Shown: positions 49,908 through 59,221 of the stretch, in pieces
Numbering within the stretch: position 1 is the stretch's first letter
How the letters are laid out: each line of letters begins with the position of its first letter
NCBI GenBank assembly: GCA_035457425.1
Contig: DATIBR010000052.1
Coordinates: forward strand, 1-64,000
DNA: 64,000 nucleotides
Direction: 5' to 3'
Source of the DNA: Terriglobales bacterium
GTDB lineage: Bacteria; Acidobacteriota; Terriglobia; Terriglobales; Acidobacteriaceae
The notes under the pieces: generated by a model
Seen by the model: only the letters and a program-made list of their open reading frames with translations
The model's database searches: none
What the model was told of the DNA's origin: nothing
Made by a program: the position numbers and the translations under genes

Positions 49908-50426
49908 ATGCGTTTCCGGTTTCCAGTTTTCCGTTTCCGGATTTCCGCCGCCCGATCTTCGGGAAACGGGAAACGGGAAACGGGAAACGACATTGGCCTC
50001 ACCCTCGTCGAGCTCATCGTCGCCATCACCATCCTGCTCATCCTGACGGGCGCGGCCATCCCTATCGCCCGCGTCCGGATCCAGCGCGAGAAGGAGCGCG
50101 AGCTCCGCCGCGACCTGTGGGAGATGCGCGACGCCATCGACCGCTACAAGGACGCCGCCGACCGCGGCGCCTTCCAGATCAAGCTCGGCTCGGACGGCTA
50201 TCCCCCCGACCTCGAGACCCTCGTCAACGGCGTCGACATCCAGGGCAAGAAAGTCCGCTTCCTCCGCCGCATCCCCGTCGACCCCATGACCGGCTCCACC
50301 GAGTGGGGCCTGCGCTCCACCCAGGACGACCCGAAATCCACCTCCTGGGGCGGCCAGAACGTCTTCGACGTCTACACTAAGGCGCAAGGCACTGCGCTCG
50401 ACGGCACCAAGTACGAGGACTGGTGA
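49908..50426 (+). CDS. Pseudopilin / type II secretion-like protein with repeat-derived leader
   Basis: A 172-residue type IV pilin-like protein. The prepilin site is G30|[19 protein letters not shown], with Glu at +5 and a hydrophobic N-terminal helix; the globular part follows ([51 protein letters not shown]). The 30-residue leader (basic; contains NGKRETGN) is read from a GGGAAAC inverted array and has no other in-frame start. ATG directly abuts the secretin stop, so translation is coupled. It resembles GspG-type minor pseudopilins of acidobacterial secretion clusters. Confidence 0.88.
49912..49990. repeat. Inverted array of GGGAAAC units inside a pseudopilin gene
   Basis: Left arm GTTTCCGGTTTCCAGTTTTCC-like (49912-49946), loop with CGCCGCCCGATCTTC, right arm GGGAAACGGGAAACGGGAAAC (49971-49990). 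It lies entirely within the 5' coding part of the next gene. Confidence 0.85.
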
Positions 50427-50857
50427 TGCACTCGCGAAACCGGAAACGGGAAACCGGAAACACGCGCCCGCATCGGCGCGCGCGCGGCTTCACCCTGCTG
50501 GAGATGATCATCGTCATCTCCATCATGCTGATCCTGGTCTCCATCGCGGTGCCGAACTACGTGCGCTCCATGCACCGCGCGCGCGAGGCCGTCCTGCGCG
50601 ACAACCTCTTCACCCTCCGCACCACCATCGACAACTACACCTACGACAAGAACGCCGCGCCGCAGTCGCTCGACGACCTCGTCTCCGGCGGCTACCTGCG
50701 CGCCGTCCCCAAGGACCCCATGACCGGCGAGACCAACTGGGTCGTCGACCAGTGCGAGACCTACGCCTCCATCGACCAGTCCCAGACCGGTATCTGCGAC
50801 GTCCACTCCGCCTCCGAGCAGATCTCCAGCGAAGGCACCCCCTACAGCAGCTGGTGA
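50426..50857 (+). CDS. Pseudopilin (GspG-like) with repeat-derived leader
   Basis: A 143-residue pilin-like protein. Prepilin site [20 protein letters not shown] with Glu at +5; then [59 protein letters not shown], the GspG layout. The leader again contains RKRETGN, from a second GGAAAC array at about 50436-50462. Start ATG overlaps the previous stop (TGATG), so the three genes form one coupled operon. It should be part of the pseudopilus of the system whose outer-membrane gate is the upstream secretin. Confidence 0.9.
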
Positions 50858-53927: not shown

Positions 53928-53982
53928 GGCGGTTCGCGGCGCGTCGCTCCGGCCCGAAGGGCGGTATTTGAGTTGGTCCAGG

Positions 53983-54066
53983 GCGTAAGCCCCCGGTGGA
54001 TCCCGGCAGTAAGGATTTCGAGCCCCTTCAGGGGCGGCATACATGAGCGAGGGCGCAAGCCCGAGC
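53983..54066. repeat. Dispersed-type intergenic repeat (CCCCTTCAGGGGC hairpin)
   Basis: GCCCCTTCAGGGGC (54022-54035) is a perfect hairpin with a 4-base loop, flanked by GGGCGTAAGCCC and GGGCGCAAGCCC. The arrangement looks like a dispersed REP-like element, but only one copy is seen in this window. Confidence 0.4.
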
Positions 54067-54086
54067 AAGAAAGCGAGAGGCTCCCG

Positions 54087-54770
54087 ATGCGTCGCATTCT
54101 CCTCGCCGTCACTCTTTTCTCCGGCCTTTCACTCTCCGCCCAGCAGCTCGACGCTGCCAAGCCGCACCACTACATCCTCAAGATCACGCCCGACTTCAAG
54201 GCCGGCATCTTCAAGGGCGAGGTCACCATCCACGGCGACACGCTCCGCCCCACCAGCGAGATCACCCTGCACGCCGTCGACCTCGAATTCCGCGAGGTCA
54301 CCATCCAGGCGCTACCCGCCGGCGAGATCCAGACTGCCAGCGTCAAGCTCGACAAGAAGCAGCAGACCGCCACGCTCGGCGCCACCGTGCCCCTGCCCGC
54401 CGGCCCGGTCGAGATCAAGATCAAGTACCGCGGCAAGCTCGGCAAGAATGCCCGCGGTTTCTACCGCGCCTCCTGCGGCGACTCGCAGTTCGCCACCACC
54501 GCCCTCGCCGGCGGCAATGCGCGCCGCATGTTCCCCTCCTGGGACGATCCCGCGTATCCCGCGCCCTTCAACGTTGTCGCCGTCGTCGGGGCCTCGGAGA
54601 CCGCCCGCTCGAATGCCGCCATCGAAAAGGAGCTGCCCAGCTCCAACCCCGAAGAGCGCGTCATCGCCTTCGCCATGACGGAGAAGATCCCCACCTCCGA
54701 CCTGCGGCTCTCCATCGGCGAAGCCCGCTGCCTGCCGCCGCCGGAGGCCGGGCCCACCGCTGCTCGCTGA
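54087..54770 (+). CDS. M1 aminopeptidase N-terminal domain only (truncated)
   Basis: A 227-residue exported protein with signal peptide (MRRILLAVTLFSGLSLSAQQ). It matches the N-terminal beta-sandwich of M1 aminopeptidases (HYILKITPDFKAGIFKGEVTIHGDTLRPTSEITLHAVDLEF...GFYRAS, and ARRMFPSWDDPAYPAPFN, where the substrate-recognition strand would be). The thermolysin-like HExxH domain is absent and the frame ends in GC-rich unrelated text (CLPPPEAGPTAAR). It is therefore a remnant or a truncated decoy; no downstream frame encodes the missing part. Confidence 0.75.
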   Translation: MRRILLAVTLFSGLSLSAQQLDAAKPHHYILKITPDFKAGIFKGEVTIHGDTLRPTSEITLHAVDLEFREVTIQALPAGEIQTASVKLDKKQQTATLGATVPLPAGPVEIKIKYRGKLGKNARGFYRASCGDSQFATTALAGGNARRMFPSWDDPAYPAPFNVVAVVGASETARSNAAIEKELPSSNPEERVIAFAMTEKIPTSDLRLSIGEARCLPPPEAGPTAAR

Positions 54771-54878: not shown

Positions 54879-54895
54879 TTGCAACCCATTTGCAG
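54879..54895. promoter_or_regulatory. Fur-family operator (TTGCAA-N5-TTGCAG)
   Basis: TTGCAACCCATTTGCAG: a 6-5-6 palindrome with one mismatch. It is 19 bases before the Fur-family gene start, suggesting autoregulation. A near-perfect copy with an extra half-site lies at 55556. Family knowledge: TTGCAA-N5-TTGCAA matches the published consensus of the nickel regulator Nur. Confidence 0.65.
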
Positions 54896-54914
54896 GAACC
54901 GGGAGGACGCCGCC

Positions 54915-55361
54915 ATGCCCATGCCGCAGACCGAGAGCCCCGGACATCTTCAGGCCGAGCTGATGGCCCGCGGCATCCGCCTCACCCGCCAGCGCCGCAC
55001 CATCCTCTCCGTCATCGAGACCGCCAAGCAGCACCTCGAGGCCTCGCAGATCCTCCGCCACGCCCGCAAGCTCGACGCCCGCGTCAACCGCGTCACCGTC
55101 TACCGCACCATCGCCCTGCTCAAGCGCCACGGACTCATCGACGAGCTCGACCTGCTCCACATCCAGGGCGACAAACATTTCTATGAGCGCCACCCACGGC
55201 GCGACCACCTGCATGTCGCCTGCCTGCGCTGCGGCAAGATCAACGAGTTCGAGAGCGACCTCTTCGACCGCCTCAAGGGCCAGGTCGAGCGCGAACTCGG
55301 CTTCCACATCGTCGTCTCCCGCATGGAAGTCGGCGGCTACTGCGCCAAGTGCCGCACCTGA
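54915..55361 (+). CDS. Fur-family metalloregulator
   Basis: A 148-residue transcription regulator. Winged-helix N-terminal part: AELMARGIRLTRQRRTILSVIETAKQHLEASQILRHARKLDARVNRVTVYRTIALLKRHGLIDEL. Metal-binding part: HFYERHPRRDHLHVACLRCGKINEFESD and the C-terminal CAKCRT; two CxxC pairs (structural zinc) and the His cluster of the sensing site are visible. Whether the metal is iron, zinc, nickel or manganese is not readable from the chain. ATG at 54915 after GGGAGGACGCC. A TTGCAA-type operator lies just upstream. It sits upstream of the PepSY/porin/FMN-ApbE cluster. Confidence 0.92.
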   Translation: MPMPQTESPGHLQAELMARGIRLTRQRRTILSVIETAKQHLEASQILRHARKLDARVNRVTVYRTIALLKRHGLIDELDLLHIQGDKHFYERHPRRDHLHVACLRCGKINEFESDLFDRLKGQVERELGFHIVVSRMEVGGYCAKCRT

Positions 55362-55408
55362 TGGGTGGAGCAGGCCTTCCCGCCTGCGCGAACGGTCTCT
55401 CTCCTGAA

Positions 55409-55471
55409 TGTCATCCCGAGCGAGTCGAAGCCGCGCCGCGCGCGGCTTCGGCGAGTCGAGGGACCATGCCT
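55409..55471. repeat. Dispersed-type intergenic repeat (TGTCATCCCGAGCGAGTCG...)
   Basis: TGTCATCCCGAGCGAGTCGAA, followed by an inverted stem GAAGCCGCGC (55427-55436) / GCGCGGCTTC (55440-55449) and GAGTCGAGGGACC. The opening resembles a dispersed GTCATCC-GAGCGAAGCGA type of repeat common in environmental bacterial genomes. One copy here. Confidence 0.5.
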
Positions 55472-55490
55472 TGCGGCCAACTCCTTCGCA

Positions 55491-55549
55491 CGGCCGACGG
55501 CCACCGGCCGACGACCCCCCGCCGACGGCCGACCGACGGCGGACGACCA
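55491..55549. repeat. Tandem array of CCGACGGC/CCGACGACC units
   Basis: About six degenerate copies of GGCCGACGG / CCGACGACC / GACCGACGG in both directions. Similar units appear at 37337 and 62384. It lies in the 283-base spacer after the Fur-family gene. Confidence 0.55.
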
Positions 55550-55555
55550 CCCCTG

Positions 55556-55582
55556 TTGCATCTTGTTGCAACCGATTTGCAA
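55556..55582. promoter_or_regulatory. Fur-family operator with three half-sites
   Basis: TTGCAT (55556-55561), TTGCAA (55566-55571) and, after CCGAT, TTGCAA (55577-55582): a perfect TTGCAA-N5-TTGCAA palindrome plus one extra half-site. It is 62 bases before the PepSY gene start. A weaker third match (TGCAACCCAGTTTCAA) covers the PepSY start codon at 55646-55661. Confidence 0.7.
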
Positions 55583-55644
55583 CACATTCTCCGCCCGCCA
55601 TCTTGACCGCGGATTGCGCGGGCTAGAGAATAGTCCTTCGCCAG

Positions 55645-56118
55645 ATGCAACCCAGTTTCAACAAGCCGATGGCCGAGAAGAGCGAGCGCCCGCACAAGCC
55701 GCGCAAGCAGCCCGCGCCTTTGCGCCTGCGTGAGCCGCGCCGCGCGCCTGCGCCCCGCCGGCCCAACGGTTGGGCGCGCCGCCTGCGCCGCCTGCACGCC
55801 CTCGTCGGCCTCGCCCTCACGCTGAACCTGCTGCTCCTGCTCGTCACCGGCTTCCTCGTCCAGCATCGCGAGGACTTCAAGCTGGAAGACAGGACCATCA
55901 GCCGCGCCTGGCTCCCGGAGAACTATCGCCCGCTTGACGGCCCCGAGGTCCGCGCCGACATCGTCGTCACTGACGTGCACTCCGGCCGCATCCTCGGCCC
56001 CAACGGCGCGCTCATCCTCGACGCTGCGACGCTCGGATGGGCGGTGCTGCTCGTCAGCGGCCTTTGGATCTACGTTTTTGGAAGACGGCGGAACGGTCAC
56101 CACGAACCGCCGGGTTGA
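55645..56118 (+). CDS. PepSY-type two-helix membrane protein
   Basis: A 157-residue membrane protein. A basic, proline-rich N-terminus (KPRKQPAPLRLREPRRAPAPRR) is followed by RLRRLHALVGLALTLNLLLLLVTGFLV (first helix, ~52-72), an exported loop containing a PepSY-like remnant (YRPLDGPEVRADIVVTDVHSGRILGPNGALI) and a second helix (LGWAVLLVSGLWIYVFG, ~130-146). The HALVGL...TG pattern is typical of PepSY-associated membrane helices that bind haem or take part in cross-membrane electron flow in flavinylation loci. It is the first gene of the porin/FMN-ApbE unit. Confidence 0.75.
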   Translation: MQPSFNKPMAEKSERPHKPRKQPAPLRLREPRRAPAPRRPNGWARRLRRLHALVGLALTLNLLLLLVTGFLVQHREDFKLEDRTISRAWLPENYRPLDGPEVRADIVVTDVHSGRILGPNGALILDAATLGWAVLLVSGLWIYVFGRRRNGHHEPPG

Positions 56119-56169: not shown

Positions 56170-57810
56170 GTGCTTCGCAGCATGCGCGGTCTTGGTGTGT
56201 TCGTACTCTTACTTCTGATCCCAGTCTTCGGCTTTGCGCAGGAGCCTGCCTCGACGCAGGAGCTCCTGCTGAAACTCCAACAGCGGCTCGATTCGCAGGA
56301 GGAAGAGCTCAAGCGCCTGCGCGCCGAGCAGCAGGAACTGCGCCAACAGCTCGCCGCGCGCCCCGCCGCGGAAGCCACCGCACCCCCCGATGTAGCGCCC
56401 TCGACCTCGAGGGCGCAGCAGACTCCGTCTCCGCAGCCCATACCGGCATCCCCCAAGGTCGCGGCGCAGTCCGCCACCACCAGCGACGCGCCCTGGTGGC
56501 GCAGCGACAAGCTCCACATCGGCGGTTACGGCTCCTTCCGCTTCGAAGCAGGCGACGCGCCCGGGCAGGCCTCGTCGTTCACCTTCCGCCGCTTCGTCAC
56601 CACCACCGACGCTCGCCTCACCGACCGCTTGCGCGTCTACAGCGAGTTCGAGCTCGAGCGCCTGGTGGAGCTCGAGCTGGAGAAGGGCGCCGAGCGCACC
56701 GCCGGCGGCGTGAAGTTCGAATCCGAGGTCGAGGGCAACGCCGGCGCCGAGATCTCGCTCGAGCAGCTCTGGGCGCAGTACGACCTCGGCAAGGGCCAGG
56801 CCATCCGCGGCGGGCTCATCCTGCCGCCGCTCGGCCGCTTCAACCTGCTGCACGACGACGACTACTGGGACATCGCGCGCCGCACCCTCATCGACCGCAG
56901 CGTGCCGGCCATCCCCGTCGCCGCCGCCTGGCGCGAGCTGGGCGTGGGCCTGGTCGGCGCCGTCGACGTCGGCGAGACCGGCAAGCTGCAGTACCAGGCG
57001 TACGTCATGAACGGCGCCGCGCTCGACTTCAACATCGAGAACATCGTGCAGACCCGCACGCCGAGCCGCAACAAGCTCGAGCTGGAAGCCGCTCTCGGCA
57101 TGGCCTCCGGCGCGGCCAACGGCACGCAGAACAGCGAGGCCTTCGGCTGGCGCGTGGCTTACAGCCCCACGCTCGCCGGCGAGCTCGCCGTCTCCGGCTA
57201 CTCCGGCAAGTACACGCCCAGCTTCATCGCGAGCAACGAGCGCGTGCACTCCATCGCCGCCGACGGCAAGTGGCGCTTCGGCAGCTTCGAGATCGAGGGC
57301 GAGTACGTCTACTCTGACTTCGGCAAGACGGAGCGCGTGGCGCAGTCGCTGGCCGAGGCCGTCAACGTCTCGGCGTCCGAGACCTCCAGCGGCGAGACCG
57401 CCGACCTCGAGAACGAGATCGAGATCGAGCTTGCCGGCCTGGCCAAGCGCCGCTGGGGCTTCTGGTTCGACGCCAAGTATCATTGGCGCCCGGACTGGCT
57501 CAAGAAAAGCTTCCTCGGCCGCGGCTTCGAAGATCCGCAGCTCATCCCCATCGTCCGCTACGAGCGCGTGTGGCTCGACCGCCACATCGACGAGTTGGCC
57601 TTCGACGCGGGCGTGATCACCGACCTGGTGACGCAGAACCTCTCGCAGGACCGCTTCACCATCGGCTTCAACTACCGCCCGACGCTGCAGTTCGGCTTCC
57701 AGATGGCGTACGAGCGCAACAACCGGCGCGAGGGAGACCGCTTGCTCTTCCCCGACACCGATGCCGACAACACCAACGGCCTGCTCATGGGCTGGACGTT
57801 CAGCTTCTAA
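56170..57810 (+). CDS. Outer-membrane beta-barrel porin-like protein
   Basis: A 546-residue outer-membrane protein: signal peptide (VFVLLLLIPVFGFAQ), a coiled-coil (~30-62, LLLKLQQRLDSQEEELKRLRAEQQELRQQ), Pro/Ala linker, then a barrel with alternating strands (IGGYGSFRFEAG, RLRVYSEFELERL, LQYQAYVMNG, GFWFDAKYHWRP, FGFQMAYERNNR) and C-terminal Phe in GWTFSF, the Bam-recognition signature. It resembles OprP/phosphate-porin-like proteins with an N-terminal coiled-coil. GTG start at 56170 behind AAGGAGG with a short spacer; ATG 56182 is the alternative. Predicted to pass a substrate or metal chelate across the outer membrane. Confidence 0.85.
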   Translation: MLRSMRGLGVFVLLLLIPVFGFAQEPASTQELLLKLQQRLDSQEEELKRLRAEQQELRQQLAARPAAEATAPPDVAPSTSRAQQTPSPQPIPASPKVAAQSATTSDAPWWRSDKLHIGGYGSFRFEAGDAPGQASSFTFRRFVTTTDARLTDRLRVYSEFELERLVELELEKGAERTAGGVKFESEVEGNAGAEISLEQLWAQYDLGKGQAIRGGLILPPLGRFNLLHDDDYWDIARRTLIDRSVPAIPVAAAWRELGVGLVGAVDVGETGKLQYQAYVMNGAALDFNIENIVQTRTPSRNKLELEAALGMASGAANGTQNSEAFGWRVAYSPTLAGELAVSGYSGKYTPSFIASNERVHSIAADGKWRFGSFEIEGEYVYSDFGKTERVAQSLAEAVNVSASETSSGETADLENEIEIELAGLAKRRWGFWFDAKYHWRPDWLKKSFLGRGFEDPQLIPIVRYERVWLDRHIDELAFDAGVITDLVTQNLSQDRFTIGFNYRPTLQFGFQMAYERNNRREGDRLLFPDTDADNTNGLLMGWTFSF

Positions 57811-57817
57811 GGAGAGC

Positions 57818-59221
57818 ATGAAGGCTGCGCACATCATCCTGCTCGCGCCCGGGACGCTGCTTGCGCTCGCGTCCCCAGGCGCGGCGCAGGCGTTCCTGAC
57901 CGAAGCCGAGGCCGCGGGCGCGCTGCTCGGCAAAGATGCCAACGTCCACCGCCAGACGCAGGCGCTCACTCCCGAAGCCCGGAAGAGGCTCGAGGACGCG
58001 AGCGGCCTGCGCTTTCCCGAGCCCAGCTTTACCTTCCTCATCGCCGACAACCGGAAAGAAGCCACCGGCTACGCGCTGGTGATGAACGAGATCGGCAAGA
58101 GCGAGCCCATCACCTTCATGGTCGGCATGTCGCCGGAAGGCAAGGTCACCGACGTCGTGCTCATGACCTTCCGCGAAAGCCGCGGCGCCGAAGTCCGCGA
58201 GCCGCGCTTCATGCGCCAGTTCCGCGGCAAGATCGCGTCGTCTCCACTGAAGATCAACCAGGACGTGATCAACTACACCGGCGCGACGCTCTCGTCGAAA
58301 GCCATCGCACGTGGCGTGAAGCGCGCCCTGCTGCTGCTCGATCAGTTCTATCCCAAGGAGACGCGCAAGCAGTTGCCCAAAGCAGGCGCGGCGCTCGCGC
58401 CGCGCCTGCCGCAGGCCTGGCGCGTCGACGGCGACCTGGCGCTCTTCCGCCAGGCGCGCTACCGCATGGGCACGCGCTGCGAGCTGCGCCTCTGGACGCG
58501 CGCGCCGCAGGATGCCGCGTGCGCCTTCGACGCCGGCTTCGCCGAGATCGCGCGCCTCGAGCAGGTCTTCAGCGCGTACCGCTCCGACAGCGAGCTGTCG
58601 GAGCTGAACCGCGCGGCCGCGAGCGGCTGGGCAGCGACTTCGCCCGACATGTGGCGCCTGCTGCGCCACGCGCGCCGCGCGTGGCGCAGCTCCCGCGGCT
58701 CCGTCGATCCCACGATCTTCGGCAGAGACGGCCTGCAGGCCGTCTCTGGCTTCCACCATGTGCAGTTCGACCGGGCTCGCCGCGCGGTGCGCTTCGCGCA
58801 GCGCGCGCTCGCGCTCGATCTCGGCGGCTTCGCCAAGGGCTACGCCGCGGACCGCGTCGCCGCGCTGCTGCGGCAGCGCGGCGACGACCGCGCAAGCATC
58901 GATCTGGGTTCCAGCTCGCTGCGCTTCGTCGGAGAAGGTTGGCTGGTCGCGACGAGCCGGCCGGAACAGCTCTTCGCGGTCCGCGATGGCGACGCGGTCT
59001 CGACCTCGGGAACGAGCGAGCGCGGCGCGCACATCGTGGATCCGCGGACCGCGCAAGCCGTTCGCGGAGAGGTCAGCGCCACGGTCTTTGCGACTTCGGC
59101 GCTGCGCGCCGAAGTCGCCAGCAAGGCGCTGCTGCTCGACGGCCACGCGCGCGGCGCGTGGCTCGTGAATCGCGCAGGCGAAGTCGCGCTCTCCCGCGCG
59201 ATGCAGGAGCGCCTGCTCTAG
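57818..59221 (+). CDS. FMN-binding domain / ApbE flavin transferase fusion, exported
   Basis: A 467-residue exported fusion. Signal peptide (MKAAHIILLAPGTLLALASPGAAQA). Residues ~75-175: FMN-binding domain with the attachment motif DVINYTGATLSS, predicted flavin on T157. Residues ~205-467: ApbE-type FAD:protein FMN transferase (ALDLGGFAKGYAADR, ASIDLGSSSLRF, STSGTSERGAHIVDPRTA). Substrate and modifying enzyme are thus on one chain, so it may flavinylate itself. ATG follows GGAGA, 7 bases after the porin stop. The stop codon overlaps the convergent engB stop. It contains a perfect 26-base palindrome at 58723. Confidence 0.9.
   Translation: MKAAHIILLAPGTLLALASPGAAQAFLTEAEAAGALLGKDANVHRQTQALTPEARKRLEDASGLRFPEPSFTFLIADNRKEATGYALVMNEIGKSEPITFMVGMSPEGKVTDVVLMTFRESRGAEVREPRFMRQFRGKIASSPLKINQDVINYTGATLSSKAIARGVKRALLLLDQFYPKETRKQLPKAGAALAPRLPQAWRVDGDLALFRQARYRMGTRCELRLWTRAPQDAACAFDAGFAEIARLEQVFSAYRSDSELSELNRAAASGWAATSPDMWRLLRHARRAWRSSRGSVDPTIFGRDGLQAVSGFHHVQFDRARRAVRFAQRALALDLGGFAKGYAADRVAALLRQRGDDRASIDLGSSSLRFVGEGWLVATSRPEQLFAVRDGDAVSTSGTSERGAHIVDPRTAQAVRGEVSATVFATSALRAEVASKALLLDGHARGAWLVNRAGEVALSRAMQERLL
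58723..58748. repeat. Perfect 26-bp palindrome inside the ApbE coding region
   Basis: CAGAGACGGCCTG followed by its exact reverse complement CAGGCCGTCTCTG. It encodes GRDGLQAVSG in a loop between ApbE segments. In-frame insertion of a palindromic unit into an existing gene is a plausible origin. Confidence 0.85.

Follow-up and report, generated by a model that had tools for sequence, protein, structure and literature searches.

Near one end of the window (the whole 64-kb stretch of DNA analysed) lies a gene for a Fur-family regulator, which we call FurX. It is followed by three genes, for a PepSY membrane protein, a porin-like protein and an FMN-ApbE fusion, and palindromic boxes of the form TTGCAA-N5-TTGCAA occur before furX and before this operon. 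In order, the features are:

54879 to 54895, no strand assigned: operator 1, TTGCAACCCATTTGCAG, upstream of furX; its position is kept upstream of the orthologues
54915 to 55361, plus strand: furX, Fur-family regulator of 148 aa (PF01475), with ligands H40, E91, H98 and H100 and two CxxC pairs
55556 to 55561, plus strand: additional TTGCAT half-site, 10 bp ahead of operator 2
55566 to 55582, no strand assigned: operator 2, TTGCAACCGATTTGCAA, found by direct reading and by mismatch scan
55603 to 55631, plus strand: possible sigma-70 promoter of the PepSY unit, TTGACC-N17-GAGAAT (9 of 12 matches; a consensus match only)
55645 to 55661, no strand assigned: operator 3, weak, ATGCAACCCAGTTTCAA, two mismatches; covers the listed PepSY ATG
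55645 to 56118, plus strand: short PepSY_TM protein of 157 aa (PF03929, E 1e-8, partial match)
56170 to 57810, plus strand: porin-like outer-membrane protein of 546 aa, with a signal-like helix, a coiled coil and predicted strands
57818 to 59221, plus strand: fusion of an FMN-binding domain with an ApbE flavin transferase, 467 aa (PF04205, PF02424)

Operator 1 ends 19 bases before the furX ATG (54915), and operator 2 matches all 12 specified bases of the box. The half-site is separated from operator 2 by four bases, against the five inside a box, and the possible promoter sits between operators 2 and 3. These two boxes, the half-site and the weaker copy at the PepSY start had been pointed out by the first-pass annotation, and each was read in place. 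Its gene calls fared less evenly: Fur, PepSY_TM and FMN_bind plus ApbE are borne out by their Pfam families, but the ‘porin’ found no family match in a Pfam search. One homologue of this protein matches PF07396 weakly, and its structure model (mean pLDDT 41.6, low confidence) was not used; ‘porin-like’ is a label we infer. The furX start, MPxPQTE, is kept in close orthologues, and the true start of the PepSY_TM gene may be the ATG at 55669. Just upstream, at 53973–54770, a 265-residue protein matches the N-terminal domain of M1 aminopeptidases only, and is without the catalytic domain.

When up to two mismatches are allowed, TTGCAA-N5-TTGCAA occurs in the window at exactly three sites—operators 1 to 3—where 0.83 are expected. 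At least three such sites arise in 8 of 100 shuffles of the window, and the count by itself is a weak signal; what stands out is that the three boxes fall inside 783 bp, across two promoter regions. The 3.14 Mb genome has four sites with at most one mismatch, two of them at this locus, and five sites within three mismatches of the family consensus, three of them here. The motif is not, then, one that recurs at random sites across the genome, the outcome that the first-pass annotation had said would count against it.

The box recurs in 62 loci around FurX orthologues, compared with ORFs chosen by conservation in loci of other base composition. Over the stretch from 10 to 300 bp upstream of furX it reaches 2.33 per kb, about 100 times the 0.022 per kb of the remaining sequence of these loci; the gap downstream of furX, before the next unit, has 1.24 per kb. 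At least one box is present in 38 of the 62 loci; the other 24 have none by the criteria used. The consensus is a full palindrome, TTGCRACTnAGTYGCAA. Of 206 box sides, 13 have a third half-site exactly 10 bp ahead of the box, as TTGCAT at 55556 is; other offsets give 0 to 4. FurX is present in 23 of the 25 genomes that have a site with at most one mismatch, compared with 45 of 100 overall (p 4e-8). A linked system of regulator and operators is well supported by these comparisons, and the earlier proposal that the regulator controls both itself and the envelope redox/porin unit is supported, in that box, regulator and neighbours stay together in different genera and families. In the papers searched we found no description of the FurX group or of its consensus, an absence that is weak evidence, and a literature text search with TTGCAACT returned unrelated papers only.

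FurX belongs to the Fur superfamily, scoring 89 bits against PF01475 (curated cut-off 23.1). It falls below the NCBIfam Fur equivalog cut-off (71.8 versus 220 bits), but so does the second Fur-type protein found in these bacteria, the canonical Fur paralogue (116 bits), which is about 33% identical to FurX and is encoded in the window's own genome on contig C30. FurX orthologues, 44–78% identical, are found in somewhat under half of the 150 relatives searched; among named organisms the regulator query gave one distant match, in Burkholderiales, and among plasmids only matches at about 32–38% identity. One genome (G029; loci L092 and L059) has two FurX-type genes, on contigs 93 and 16, and canonical Fur was not found in it. 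Judging by an impression of its gene content, the host of the window probably belongs to the Acidobacteriota.

The metal ligands were read from an alignment of 63 FurX sequences, 62 from relatives plus the window's own, against E. coli Fur, M. tuberculosis Zur, B. subtilis PerR, Streptomyces Nur and Magnetospirillum Fur, the first three of these references having been verified against PDB chains. H40, E91, H98, H100 and both CxxC pairs are invariant, and the four-ligand Fur sensing site (H33, E81, H88 and H90 in E. coli Fur) is complete in every sequence. The second Fur site (H87, D89, E108, H125) has lost H87, D89 and H125, and the acidic residue alone is kept; D76, E77, D79, H82 and H88 of FurX are also invariant, and could form an alternative metal site. 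The nickel site of Nur (H70, H72, H126) is replaced by E77, D79 and R136 in all 63 sequences. The D, C, H, H sensing site of MtZur is incomplete, the Cys position (of YRRC) being occupied by R, K or H, and the PerR site (H37, D85, H91, H93, D104) is not reproduced, since the D85 position is non-acidic and D104 is E. The best PDB sequence match of FurX is a manganese uptake regulator (5fd6), and Nur (3eyy) is not the top-scoring relative. The FurX structure model is weak at residues 78–96, where part of the metal site lies, and ligand geometry was not read from it. FurX is most likely a ‘Fur-like iron repressor’, a description that makes no claim of Fur orthology.

The conserved targets of the box in relatives are iron genes. 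In close relatives the unit that follows furX comprises an outer-membrane-like protein of about 290 residues and a cytochrome c; in others FMN/ApbE proteins accompany either a TonB receptor or a porin, or the unit is FTR1, and the box also stands upstream of FTR1 at sites distant from furX. A scan of 399 genomes of the class yields 20 exact matches to the box, 19 of them at furX, TonB receptors, FTR1, FeoB or the outer-membrane/cytochrome unit; the remaining match (G141, contig 152) is apparently within unrelated coding sequence. One of these TonB receptors scores over the curated cut-off as a siderophore receptor, and FeoB likewise scores over its curated cut-off. No nickel, zinc or manganese transporters were seen among the genes at the 20 exact matches. 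A scan for nickel SOD gave no match, but its controls were silent as well and the result carries no weight.

Two genes of these units deserve mention in their own right. The protein of about 290 residues (at L089, 598–1460 after the furX start, and in relatives) is conserved and has no Pfam family, and in most close relatives it forms a pair with the cytochrome c downstream of the FurX box; it is a candidate for a new iron-uptake part. In G033 (L068), some 650–1200 after furX, a gene resembles by eye the N-terminal part of a multicopper oxidase, without a Pfam match, and is followed by a TonB-receptor-like protein.

The porin-like protein has relatives in 10 of 150 genomes, its own included, and in seven of the 10 FurX was not found. 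In those seven the operon is usually PepSY, porin-like, FMN_bind and ApbE, with a canonical-type Fur about 2 kb away in five, and an AT-rich Fur box (e.g. TGAAAATGAATTTCA) precedes the operon in all six of the readable loci. The three genomes with FurX (the window's own, G149, and G029, whose porin is more distant) all have the TTGCAA box at the operon instead. The exact probability of this 3/3 against 6/6 partition is 1/84, or 0.008 at 3/3 against 7/7 with G068 included; G068 was left out since its porin gene has a broken frame and showed no upstream box. These genomes, like those compared next, are not independent by descent. At FTR1 the box, at about the same place and typed by eye, is of the TTGCAA kind in 17 genomes, with canonical Fur found in 0 of them, and of the AT-rich kind in 33, with canonical Fur found in 29 (Fisher p 6e-10); restricted to the window's family and to FurX-positive genomes, the figures are 0/7 and 13/16 (p 5e-4). 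There are exceptions: four AT-rich FTR1 genes belong to genomes in which canonical Fur was not found, and G117 has a TTGCAA-type FTR1 and no FurX that we could find. On the FurX tree the FTR1 box type changes eight times at best, which suggests several switches, with support too low to exclude a single origin.

Computation shows that box, regulator and operon are conserved, that the box has iron targets in relatives, and that one type of box gives way to the other as the regulator does. Related bacteria appear to have, at one and the same set of iron genes, FurX with its box in place of ordinary Fur with its own. The genome of the window has AT-rich boxes at a single site, two overlapping copies before FTR1 (contig C180), and TTGCAA boxes hardly occur outside the locus described here, so that each of the two Fur proteins appears to have one of two iron loci. 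On balance we favor, with some reserve, a picture in which two clades of iron Fur, each with an operator dialect of its own (TTGAAAnTnAnTTTCAA and TTGCAACTnAGTTGCAA), have a common set of iron promoters within one class and trade them: where ordinary Fur is lost, FurX would take over FTR1 and the box would be rewritten in place, and where both are kept, as here, each would have one iron locus. The AT-rich dialect is the type of the delta-proteobacterial Fur box, WTGAAAATNATTTTCAW, found at the operon and at FTR1 in the relatives that lack FurX; the FurX box differs in having C at position 4 and G at position 14. Paralogous regulator and operators changing together at the same promoters amount to a natural experiment, and one in which the two box types differ mainly at two positions.

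Which metal FurX senses is a question that the box alone cannot answer, since nickel, iron and zinc members of the Fur family share it. The first-pass annotation had reasoned from the box to Nur, whose own box, tTGCaa-N5-ttGCAA (PMC3919588), the locus does fit. The iron Fur of Magnetospirillum gryphiswaldense, however, protects or binds TCGCAACTCATTCGCAA / TTAATCGCAACTCATTCGCAATTGC and was crystallized on TTGCAAATCATTTGCAA (PMC4506495), and for Desulfovibrio a Zur box with the sequence ATGCAACnnnGTTGCAT / ATGCAACNNNGTTGCAT is predicted before znuABC-zur (PMC545781). FurX has family and box in common with Streptomyces Nur, but not the nickel ligands, which are E, D and R in 63 of 63 sequences; the conserved targets of its box are iron genes, nickel genes are absent from them, and 3eyy is not its nearest relative by score. 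Regulation by nickel through a Nur orthologue is accordingly very unlikely, and the metal assignment made from the box alone is corrected. Somewhat better placed, though still unlikely, is a sensor of zinc (Zur-like) or of manganese (Mur-like) that uses the same type of box, the envelope unit serving that metal. The Desulfovibrio Zur_D box is nearly the same palindrome as the FurX box, and 5fd6 is a manganese uptake regulator; but the Zur cysteine is not kept, znu and mnt genes are absent at the 20 exact matches (no zinc genes were seen at FurX boxes, whereas Zur_D boxes are predicted before znuABC), and FTR1, FeoB and the siderophore-type receptors all serve iron.

Another possibility is that these are variants of the ordinary Fur box and that their main reader is not FurX but the canonical paralogue on contig C30. 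That paralogue is present in the same genome, and Magnetospirillum Fur binds both box types; the TTGCAA box tracks FurX, however, and occurs at FTR1 only where canonical Fur was not found, which makes this reading improbable, and a little more so than the zinc or manganese one. Hardly to be entertained at all is the idea that the boxes are chance palindromes: the shuffles leave it a little room, but the motif is rare genome-wide and conservation of the box at orthologous promoters contradicts it. The boxes are real, binding-site-like signals of a Fur-family regulator. FurX is most likely a divergent iron-sensing repressor of the Fur type with an operator dialect of its own, and iron over nickel is well supported by targets and predicted ligands together. 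Its closest analogue is the Magnetospirillum iron Fur with its feoAB1 operator (PDB 4RB1–4RB3): TCGCAACTCATTCGCAA has the layout and half-sites of the FurX box, and FurX retains the Tyr-Arg by which the recognition helix makes contact. Unlike that protein, FurX is without metal site 2 (H87, D89, H125) and has two CxxC pairs; sequence identity is low, and the regulon members are different.

How might the locus work? We infer DNA binding and a metal for FurX, repression, and a reductase activity for the operon, the repression and the ferric reduction coming from family knowledge. Fe(II) held at H40/E91/H98/H100 would allow a FurX dimer to bind the TTGCAA-N5-TTGCAA boxes. When iron is sufficient, operator 1, in the furX start region, would shut off furX itself, and operators 2 and 3, which flank the likely promoter, would keep the PepSY / porin-like / FMN-ApbE operon off; when iron is short, the operon would be made. 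Its flavin-bearing periplasmic protein and PepSY membrane protein might then pass electrons to ferric iron, with the porin-like protein admitting iron or a chelate through the outer membrane. Iron reduction has been connected with PepSY-flavinylation clusters, some of them under repression by Fur (PMC8238504); in the delta-proteobacteria, porins and a cytochrome c are under Fur (PMC545781). Like the described systems, the operon combines a PepSY_TM protein, an FMN-bearing protein and ApbE with a link to iron assimilation and Fur; it differs in having a porin-like protein and in the fusion of FMN_bind to ApbE, and a DUF2271 protein was not seen among its products. This porin-linked flavin/PepSY unit joins the candidates for assimilatory iron reduction.

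Elsewhere in the window, between two pilin-like genes, there are short arrays of a 7-base unit, GGAAACG, at 49912–49988 and 50432–50461; allowing one mismatch, GGAAACGGGAAAC has seven matches at these pilin-gene arrays, where 0.03 are expected.
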